Assembly (NCBI RefSeq): GCF_001552655.1
Contig: NZ_BCRP01000023.1
Coordinates: forward strand, 1 to 38,641
Length of the DNA: 38,641 nucleotides
Direction of reading: 5' to 3'
DNA from: Alicyclobacillus kakegawensis NBRC 103104
Lineage (GTDB): Bacteria > Bacillota > Bacilli > Alicyclobacillales > Alicyclobacillaceae
The notes under the pieces are model-generated. The model made no database searches. It had not been told where the DNA came from and saw only the letters and a program-made list of their open reading frames with translations. Positions 30,529 to 33,956 of this stretch are shown piece after piece (the first letter of the stretch is position 1; every line of letters starts with the position of its first letter). The translations under genes were made by a program, and so were the position numbers.

Positions 30529-31821
30529 ATGGAGAGGCCTGAGTCTCGCGGTTCCACTTGGTCTGTGTATGAGTGGGCCGTTGTATTGATGCTTCTCGCG
30601 GCGTTGGTCATCTCGGCTATCGATCGAGTCAACATTTCTATCGTCGGAGCCTATTGGGTTAAGCACCACATCATTACCTCTCAGCAACTGGGTCTGCTAC
30701 AGTCCATCTTCAGTTGGTCGTTGACCCTGTTCCTGTTGGCCGCGGGGCCTATCGCCGATCGCTTTCACCCGCGCCGAGTCCTCCCCATCGGAATGGTCCT
30801 GTGGACAGTGGCAACCTGGCTGTCCGCCATCACTCTAAAGATACCCGTACTGGCGGCATTTCGAGCCTTGCTCGGTATCGGCGAGTCGGCCCTGCTACCC
30901 TCCGCGCCGCGGATTGTCATTGAAAACATTCCAGCGCGCGACCGCAGCAAGGCTATCAGCCTCTATTTCACGGGGAACAAATTGGGCCCGACGCTCGGGC
31001 TTCCCCTCGCAGCCGCCGTCTTAGTATGGCTTGGTTGGCGGCAGGTGTTCTTCGTTACAGGCGCCCTTAGCCTGATATGGGCGATAGTCTGGTTGCTCAT
31101 CTATCGAAAAGACAAGGGAATCCAGCCTTCATCGGACTCGCCTGTGGAAAGGGCAAACGTCTCCTGGGGTCGACTGTTTGCATATCGAAACACGTGGGCG
31201 ATGATCATCGGTCAATTTGGGTATCTGTACGTGCTGTATGTGTTCTTGACCTGGCTGCCGGGAATTCTGGTTTTGCAAGAACATCTGAGCATCGGTCAGA
31301 GTGGCTCCCTCAGTGCGCTGCCCTTTATTGTATCCATCGTCACGACCATTCTCGGTGGATGGTTGGCAGACGCCTGGGTGAACCGTGGCGGGAACCGGAC
31401 CGTGGTACGCAAGACGATCATCGGTGGCGGTCTTGTGCTCAGCACTGTCTGCGTGCTGATTGCCGCTTACAGCACTTCGTCAACGATGACGGTGGTGTTT
31501 TTGGTACTCACCATGGCTGCGATGGGGCTCGTGACCGGGAGCGTGAACTCCCTGCCCATGGACTTGGCTCCGCCCAAGGTGGTCTCCTCGGTCAGCTCGT
31601 TGCAGAACTTCGGTGGCAATATGGGTGCATCGTTCGCACCCCTCCTCACCGGTGCGCTGTACGGCACGTTTCACAGTTTCCGGATCCCACTCATTATCAC
31701 CGGGGCTGTAGCGCTGTTGGGCGCACTCGCCTACGTCATTCTGCTGGGCAGGGTGGAGCGTACGTACGAGGTGGAGGCGTTGGAGAAGCCTGTATCTGGA
31801 GCTGTGGCGCTTGAAGATTGA
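30529..31821 (+). CDS. MFS transporter, ACS-like organic acid family
   Basis: A 430-residue permease with 12 predicted membrane segments. It shows the characteristic N-terminal AIDRVNISI segment, the loop GPIADRFHPRR, RALLGIGESALLPS and GNKLGPTLGLPLAAAV typical of the anion:cation symporter (ACS) group, and the second-half WLADAWVNRGG. ATG 30529 follows GGAAGGGA (30511-30518) with a 10-base gap; a GTG at 30520 is an alternative. It is the last gene of the ubiX-iclR-ubiD operon. Its role is probably uptake of the aromatic or hydroxy-acid substrate of UbiD. Confidence 0.88.
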   Translation: MERPESRGSTWSVYEWAVVLMLLAALVISAIDRVNISIVGAYWVKHHIITSQQLGLLQSIFSWSLTLFLLAAGPIADRFHPRRVLPIGMVLWTVATWLSAITLKIPVLAAFRALLGIGESALLPSAPRIVIENIPARDRSKAISLYFTGNKLGPTLGLPLAAAVLVWLGWRQVFFVTGALSLIWAIVWLLIYRKDKGIQPSSDSPVERANVSWGRLFAYRNTWAMIIGQFGYLYVLYVFLTWLPGILVLQEHLSIGQSGSLSALPFIVSIVTTILGGWLADAWVNRGGNRTVVRKTIIGGGLVLSTVCVLIAAYSTSSTMTVVFLVLTMAAMGLVTGSVNSLPMDLAPPKVVSSVSSLQNFGGNMGASFAPLLTGALYGTFHSFRIPLIITGAVALLGALAYVILLGRVERTYEVEALEKPVSGAVALED

Positions 31822-31985
31822 AATCAGTATCTGAAACCGTACCTGCATTCCTGCTATGAAGACCTGGATTTACATATCAAAGTGATGGGTTCAGGGTGTA
31901 GGTCGGCGGAAGAAAGAACGGATCGGCAAGTTCACTGTCGAGACTGAGTTCTCCGATGGGAAAATCCATATTTTACAGATTGTGA

Positions 31986-32062
31986 ACAGGGCAAACCAGC
32001 GGAAACGTTGGGACGCAAAGCCACGGGTCTACGGACGTATGTCTATGGCGGCCGGGTTGCCA
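31986..32062 (+). ncRNA. cyclic di-GMP-I (GEMM) riboswitch aptamer
   Basis: The conserved GEMM-I elements occur in order: AGGGCAAACC (31988-31997), a hairpin CCAGCG-GAAA-CGTTGG (31996-32011) with a GAAA tetraloop, GGACGCAAAGCC (32011-32022), a second hairpin arm, TATGGCGGCC (32044-32053) and the 3' GGGTTGCC (32054-32061). The first G-rich stretch reads AGGG, keeping the guanosine that selects c-di-GMP, rather than the A found in cGAMP-type variants. An expression platform with a terminator follows. It lies upstream of a chemoreceptor, a common GEMM target. The aptamer call is strong; ligand choice is inferred. Confidence 0.9.
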
Positions 32063-32127
32063 CATCATCCAGACAATCTCAGATGATCGGCCAGGCAACC
32101 GTACGTCTATGCGCAGGTTGCTTTTTT
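32063..32127 (+). terminator. riboswitch expression platform: antiterminator and intrinsic terminator
   Basis: Terminator: GCAACC (32095-32100) pairs with GGTTGC (32116-32121), followed by six T residues (32122-32127). Competing structure: GGTTGCC at the aptamer 3' end (32055-32061) can pair with GGCAACC (32094-32100), and ATCATC (32064-32069) with GATGAT (32082-32087), forming a nested antiterminator. If ligand binding locks the aptamer 3' strand, the terminator should form, so the switch is predicted to be OFF at high c-di-GMP. Confidence 0.8.
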
Positions 32128-32198
32128 GCTGCATCTGACGCTCGGCACTTGGGGACTAGACAATAAAGAAGATCCATGGTGGTAGGGGGATTGCATTC

Positions 32199-33956
32199 AT
32201 GAACAACCTCAGACTGGGCGTCTTCTTCTCGTCGCTGCGTATCAAACTCCTGGCCATGTCGCTGGCTATGCTGATGATTCCAAGCCTGGTGATTGGCCTC
32301 GTAACCTATGAGATCACGAAGAAGCAACTGGAGGCTGCCGGTGAGCAGCAGTTGAAACAGGATGTCCTGCATGTGTTCGCGTTGATTGACGAAGCCAACA
32401 TACAGGTGAAGGCCGGTAGGATGACCTTGGCGGCCGCTCAGGAAATGGTGAAGGAAGAGGTTCTGGGCCCAAAGGATAAGCAGGGGCATCGGCCTATCAA
32501 TCCCAGGTTTAAGATAGGGTCCAACGGATACATCATCGCCATCAATGATCATGCCGTCAGCCTGATGAATCCTCTGGTGGAGGGGCAGGACAACTGGAAC
32601 CAGAAGACCGTCGACGGTGTCATGTCGGGGCGGGAGATGGTTCGGTTGGCTGACAAAGGCGGCGGGTATCTGACGTACATGTGGCCGCTGCCGAATTCCA
32701 AGGGCGTGGCCAAGAAGATTGTCTACGTTCAGAAAGACCCGGATTGGGGTTGGAACGTGGCCGCCGGGTCGTATATGGCGGATTTTGAGGCTCCTGCCAA
32801 CCAGGTGCTGCACATGTTGGTGATTGTCCTGGTGCTGGAAGTCATCCTAGGTGCTCTGGTGAGTGTGTGGCTCGCCGGGCGGATCGCGAAGCCGATTACC
32901 AAAATGGCGCACCAGGTGGAGCGTGTCGCCGCGGGAGACTTGAGTGTGGAGCCTCTGGTCAAGCGCGGCAATGACGAAATTTCTCGTCTGGCGGTTGGTT
33001 TTTCCCGCATGATGAATCACCTGCGTGACCTGATTAAGAACATCAGCGAAACTTCCGAGCAACTGGCGGCATCTGCAGAAGAACTGTCTGCAAGCGCGGA
33101 GGAGAACATGCGGGCGACGGAACAGGTGACACAGACGGCACAGGATGTAGCCGCGGGCGCGGAGCGGCAGGTACACACCGTTGGAGAAGGGGCAAACGCC
33201 GTAAACCACATCGCAGGCGCCATGGAACAGATTGCCCGCAATGCGCAGGAGGCGTCTGCATCGGCTGCGAAGGCGGTCGAAATCTCCAAGTTGGGGAATG
33301 ATTCTATACAGTCTGTGCACGTGCAGATGAATTCCATCCAGGAAATTGTCGATCAGGCGGCTGTCGTCGTCAGAGGTCTCGGTGAGCGGTCGCAGGAGAT
33401 CGGCCGGATTGTTGAAGTCATCACCGACATTGCGGAGCAGACCAACCTGTTGGCGCTGAATGCCGCCATTGAGGCCGCGCGAGCCGGAGAGCATGGGCGG
33501 AGCTTCGCCGTCGTCGCCGGAGAGGTACGCAAGCTGGCGGAGCACTCCAGTCAGTCGGCGCAGCAGATTGCCGATTTGATTTCCAGCATTCAACAGGAGA
33601 GTCAGGCTGCCGTGCAATCGATGGAGGCTAGCACGTCCGAGGTCAACGCCGGACTCCACGCCGTTCACGACGCGGGCGAATCATTTGGGCAAATTGGTGA
33701 ATCGGTCTCGGAAGTGGTACGGCAGTTCGAAGAGGTGTTTACGTCGGTACGGCAATTGACCGATCGGGCGGAGCAGCTGCAGACACTGATGGGTAACGTA
33801 TCCACCGTCACCGACTCGACCTCGGCCGGGATGCAGACGGTGTTCGCGTCCACCGAGGAACAATTGGCGTCGATGGAGGAAATTTCGGCTTCAGCCCAGT
33901 CTTTGAATCGGATGGCGGAGCAATTGCAGACGTTGGTCGGTCAGTTCAAGATGTGA
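32199..33956 (+). CDS. methyl-accepting chemotaxis protein with Cache sensor
   Basis: A 585-residue transmembrane receptor. The first membrane segment is at about 15-37, followed by an extracellular sCache-type domain (about 40-200, with [20 protein letters not shown] and GGGYLTYMW). The second is at about 203-225, then a HAMP domain (about 225-280: [20 protein letters not shown]). The cytoplasmic signalling domain follows, with the hairpin tip [20 protein letters not shown] and [26 protein letters not shown] precedes ATG 32199. It binds a small ligand, often an organic or amino acid, and signals through CheA/CheW. Expression is likely gated by the c-di-GMP riboswitch immediately upstream. 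Confidence 0.95.

Follow-up and report, generated by a model that had tools for sequence, protein, structure and literature searches.

The region under study lies in a window of 38,641 bases (the whole stretch of DNA analysed), between a gene for a major-facilitator transporter that ends at 31821 and a plus-strand gene at 32199-33956, whose translation of 585 amino acids carries the Pfam domains sCache_2, HAMP and MCPsignal. This is the Cache chemoreceptor announced in a preliminary description of the same DNA, and AGGGGG stands shortly upstream of its ATG. A consensus promoter scan gave no match, and a sigma-D-like promoter ahead of the leader looked weak by eye and was dropped.

The Rfam covariance model RF01051 (c-di-GMP-I, GEMM-I) matches the plus strand at 31980-32064 over its full length (model positions 1-87 of 87) with 80.4 bits (E 2e-14), above the gathering score of 35. 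It scores above its clan relatives at this place, and the match is the sole one above Rfam gathering scores in the window. We thus predict a c-di-GMP-I riboswitch aptamer at 31980-32064, one expected from its sequence to bind c-di-GMP. The preliminary description had seen all GEMM-I blocks here, which the strong full-length match bears out, and had named the absence of an Rfam-level hit as one result that would overturn its reading; the element is real, its start having been placed at 31986, six nucleotides inside the aptamer, instead of at 31980. The Rfam alignment and the letters place a GAAA tetraloop of the GNRA type at 32002-32005 (+), in the first aptamer hairpin, and a G at 31990 (+), in model column 11. 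We take this column to be equivalent to G20 of Vc2 and G11 of Cd1. That position is reported to govern ligand selectivity, as a selectivity factor rather than a hard filter, in the accessible part of the source (PMC9262584).

Alternative pairings of the leader

Folds and letters define three strands on the plus strand. Strand A (GGTTGCC, 32055-32061) is the aptamer 3' strand, with 32055-32058 paired within the aptamer; strand T (GGCAACC, 32094-32100) is the 5' arm of the terminator; and strand H (GGTTGC, 32116-32121) is its 3' arm, followed by six T residues at 32122-32127. The terminator hairpin (32094-32122) and its T-run thus lie within the 63 nt that follow the aptamer; the preliminary description had already assigned GGCAACC and the six T to a terminator. 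Its claim that GGTTGCC complements GGCAACC proved exact, A and T forming seven of seven Watson-Crick pairs, and the ATCATC (32064-32069) and GATGAT (32082-32087) that it had invoked in support of the antiterminator form an auxiliary hairpin nested inside the latter. Since T can pair with either A or H, and A:T takes four nucleotides (32055-32058) out of the aptamer pairs, aptamer and terminator belong to one fold and the antiterminator to the other. Folds forced on the transcript ending at 32124 agree with this mutual exclusivity, also recognized earlier: aptamer and terminator can coexist, and the antiterminator excludes both. The terminator arm lies downstream of the aptamer 3' strand and is complementary to it, as in Cd1-like OFF switches. 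It starts 33 nt past A and leaves the aptamer intact, so that the terminator, at 32094-32122, falls outside the aptamer and the pilM-like arrangement, with the aptamer 3' strand as a terminator arm, was not found here.

When the letters of the terminator 5' arm were shuffled, a 7/7 Watson-Crick match to A arose in 0.3% of 100,000 trials, and in 3.1% of 100,000 when G-U pairs were allowed. A consensus terminator scan, which allowed loops of up to 8, returned 0 sites. A lenient scan for a hairpin plus T-run gave 24 plus-strand sites in the 38,641 bases, so that, by our arithmetic, any chosen point has a chance of about 4% of lying within 70 nt of such a site. With seven plus-strand occurrences in the window, GGCAACC is not a rare sequence, so that the evidence resides in its place within a terminator arm and in its recurrence in relatives. 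Against shuffled sequences, the terminator alone folds with a z-score of only -1.47 and the antiterminator stretch with one of -2.66.

For transcripts ending between 32101 and 32120, forced folds favour the antiterminator over the aptamer by 2.7-4.3 kcal/mol; at 32124, the forced combination of aptamer and terminator reaches -46.3 kcal/mol, versus -44.0 for the forced antiterminator. In unforced ensembles the probability of A:T is 0.69 at end 32100, the only point at which it dominates, 0.17 at 32105 and at most 0.08 at 32110-32118, because the model gives preference to a pairing in a shifted register, in which T is likewise engaged. In this register, predicted for ends 32105-32118, positions 32044-32048, 32051-32053 and 32055-32059 pair with nucleotides ahead of T and inside it, and the pairs of the aptamer 3' strand are near zero while it prevails. 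By eye, it is weaker in the A. shizuokensis ortholog, where CGGCC has become CGGTC, and we retain it solely as a possible intermediate suggested by the folding model. At 32124 the ligand-free equilibrium ensemble gives the terminator pairing T:H a probability of 0.77. Equilibrium thus already prefers the completed terminator in ligand-free RNA, and antitermination would have to work kinetically. The antiterminator of Cd1 is likewise described, in the available part of its report, as only transiently stable and the switch as kinetic (PMC9262584).

Two further pairings were discarded. The 5' flank AGATTGT (31977-31983) pairs with ACAATCT (32073-32079) in the minimum-energy fold, and was rejected as a needed part because the A. 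shizuokensis leader keeps only five of the seven pairs. A contact between the terminator loop and the distal arm of the aptamer was equalled by 911 of 2000 letter-shuffled loops and was put down to chance.

Recurrence in the host genome and its relatives

The host genome (Alicyclobacillaceae, near Alicyclobacillus shizuokensis) has two c-di-GMP-I matches and four MCPsignal matches, each of the former preceding one of the latter. Domain matches also include GGDEF (three, in two open frames), EAL (three) and flagellin (two). Downstream of the second c-di-GMP-I site (L002, C2:107753-107848) lies an MCP gene whose domains are HAMP, MCPsignal and a sub-threshold dCache_1. The site follows the same strand logic, with A:T at 7/7; the listed ORF start overlaps the aptamer there, so that the true start must be further down.

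The receptor LBD has a match of 96% in A. shizuokensis and one of 66% in A. sendaiensis. In the nearest leader, that of A. shizuokensis (L003/L010), strands A, T and H are unchanged while the surrounding letters differ, and GATGAT has become GGTGAT, a change that preserves the auxiliary pairing through G-U. The A. sendaiensis contig (L011), which covers about 1.2 kb before the receptor match, is without an RF01051 match, so that not every relative of this receptor has the switch.

Across the family, 40 of 41 genomes contain c-di-GMP-I matches, with 0 to 20 per genome. From the 263 matches we examined 116, taken from the higher-scoring end (36 obtained via searches and 80 fetched), leaving out 147. 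A qualifying terminator was found in 62 of these 116 loci (61 with the first settings), and the strand test was applied to 40 distinct ones, after removal of four whose hairpin starts at most 3 nt from the aptamer, 13 without GGNTGC and five duplicates. A pairs with T at 7/7 in 22 of these loci, at 6/7 in 12 and at 5/7 in six. Letter-shuffled arms reached 7/7 in 1.26 +/- 1.09 loci (maximum 7 in 2000 trials), and arms swapped between loci in 17.7 +/- 1.7, with 22 being reached in 58 of 5000 swaps; the observed count is only modestly high relative to swapped arms because A hardly varies. Measured over 54 loci, the pairing energy of cognate arms averages -13.4 kcal/mol, versus -12.4 +/- 0.28 for swapped arms, and the cognate mean was reached in 4 of 20,000 permutations. 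Covariation is seen at two positions: where base 3 of A is C, its partner is G in all five rows with at least 6/7 pairs, and base 7 and its partner occur among 7/7 rows as C-G, T-A (L035) and A-T (L067). The rows are not independent, since L001/L003, L002/L006 and L042/L051 are near relatives.

An MCP-signal match lies downstream in at least 14 of the 116 loci, a lower bound because many downstream stretches end at about 1.3-1.5 kb. Nine of these 14 pair A with T at 6 or 7 of 7, including seven at 7/7; of the remainder, L096 pairs at 5/7 and L036, L065, L081 and L087 stand outside the strand test; for L036 and L087 the scan gave no qualifying terminator. L003/L010, L042, L051 (with one mismatch in A:T), L106 and L002 resemble the locus in having a c-di-GMP-I aptamer, a complementary terminator arm and a downstream sCache or dCache chemoreceptor, whereas their spacer and terminator sequences differ from it. 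The long-armed aptamer of L106 (L106:1286-1400) obtains its best score from the sister family c-di-GMP-I-GGC (RF03167) and not from RF01051.

Direction of the switch

We consider it probable, at roughly 0.85, that the leader is a c-di-GMP-I riboswitch that attenuates transcription and switches the chemoreceptor gene off at high c-di-GMP, a direction which, like ligand binding, folding order and physiological sense, we infer. In the proposed course of events, strand A of a ligand-free nascent RNA would capture T upon its emergence and keep it from the terminator, and the polymerase would continue into the MCP gene. Binding of c-di-GMP would instead hold A in the aptamer and leave T free for H, and transcription would then stop at 32122-32127. 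The preliminary description had also read the switch as OFF while presenting the direction as its own deduction; the strand order on which it relied does match that of a tested OFF switch, and the direction keeps the standing it was given. This tested switch, Cd1 of the flgB operon of Clostridioides difficile, has a terminator made of T and H and an antiterminator involving T and A, as far as the accessible text of the report describes it (PMC9262584). It shares with the locus the aptamer class, both pairings and a transcriptional OFF logic, but controls flagellar genes and was tested in vitro, whereas the locus is a prediction from sequence. In C. difficile, all seven class I switches that function are reported to be OFF, in the part of the source at hand (PMC6366702).

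The opposite polarity, in which c-di-GMP would unfold or prevent the terminator, is known from reports available in part. Bc1 of the Bacillus cereus group, frequently located before MCP genes, acted as an ON switch when joined to a reporter in B. subtilis, and rising c-di-GMP unfolds its terminator T1 (PMC11218506); it resembles the locus in aptamer class, downstream MCP genes and occurrence in Bacilli, but has two terminators 28 bp apart, in contrast to the single terminator and OFF layout found here. The pilM switch of Geobacter metallireducens, a cGAMP-sensing ON switch that uses strands T, A and H for its terminator (PMC9262584), has a highly homologous aptamer and is also transcriptional, yet differs in making A part of the terminator and in the ligand sensed. 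The family itself holds one clear ON layout (L108:101-200), in which a strong terminator uses A itself as its 5' arm (A:H -24.4 kcal/mol). Our simple sort of the 116 loci gave 23 OFF, 18 ambiguous, 20 "ON", 13 with a terminator only and 42 with none, numbers too noisy to serve as a tally; neither the locus under study (L001) nor L003 was flagged in it for an ON-type pairing of A with H. Together with the distance of the terminator arm from A and the compatibility of aptamer and terminator in the single fold of -46.3 kcal/mol, this makes an ON switch unlikely here.

The preference of the model for the terminator at ligand-free equilibrium would also suit a terminator that is constitutive, or a switch that has decayed, c-di-GMP being bound without effect on expression. 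Natural non-responders do exist, among them Bc1 in its native setting (PMC11218506) and non-functional copies in C. difficile (PMC6366702), as stated in the accessible portions of these reports. Such a loss is nevertheless very unlikely given that A, T and H are constant in the A. shizuokensis leader despite differing surroundings, and that the second site of the host genome shares the same logic at 7/7. As for the ligand, GEMM-I relatives in Geobacter are reported, in the text at hand, to bind cGAMP (PMC8835794); the G at 31990, the higher score of RF01051 relative to its clan relatives and the GGDEF and EAL domains of the host genome all speak against cGAMP, which we regard as very unlikely at this locus.

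Receptor repertoire and neighbouring loci

The riboswitch class and the theme of its regulon are already known, and the locus is a further example. According to the available part of one report, c-di-GMP riboswitches precede motility and chemotaxis genes, including a copy before a putative MCP gene in B. anthracis (PMC6366702). For acid- and heat-loving Bacilli, a literature search with one set of terms returned no relevant report, and in this group the locus provides a well-supported and testable case of a chemoreceptor under the control of c-di-GMP. Since its OFF layout stands in contrast to what is reported for Bc1, the polarity of MCP-linked switches can be compared within a single class, and the 0 to 20 matches per genome across 41 genomes make the family a convenient natural collection with both OFF and ON platforms.

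The only c-di-GMP-II match of the host genome (L126, G000:C5:155366-155449, minus strand) precedes WxL and WxLIP genes, a cell-surface theme. With two OFF-layout c-di-GMP-I switches before two of the four MCP-signal genes and a c-di-GMP-II element before WxL genes, c-di-GMP might edit the chemoreceptor set by RNA alone, a plausible idea that we advance tentatively. High c-di-GMP would then remove the output of half of the receptor genes and act separately on the surface-protein genes.

Several observations were made in passing among the examined loci. L104 (G032) carries tandem c-di-GMP-I aptamers on one strand, with cores at offsets 110 and 294, i.e., 184 nt apart. The near-identical leaders of L014 and L016 resemble that of the chemoreceptor locus L106, and the ORF of L016 combines a weak similarity to the N-terminal part of the receptor with sigma-70 region 2 and 4 domains; this may be a receptor remnant beside a sigma factor. 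Finally, 12 of the 116 loci (L005, L037, L052, L061, L073, L083, L086, L088, L090, L099, L100 and L107) have the motif RRRIARDLHDGP in the called gene that follows the aptamer at a distance of 204-440 nt. The two such genes that were scanned (L037 and L061) encode HisKA_3 histidine kinases, and the kinases bearing the motif are presumably DegS-like, which would make c-di-GMP-I aptamers and DegS-like kinases a recurrent pairing.
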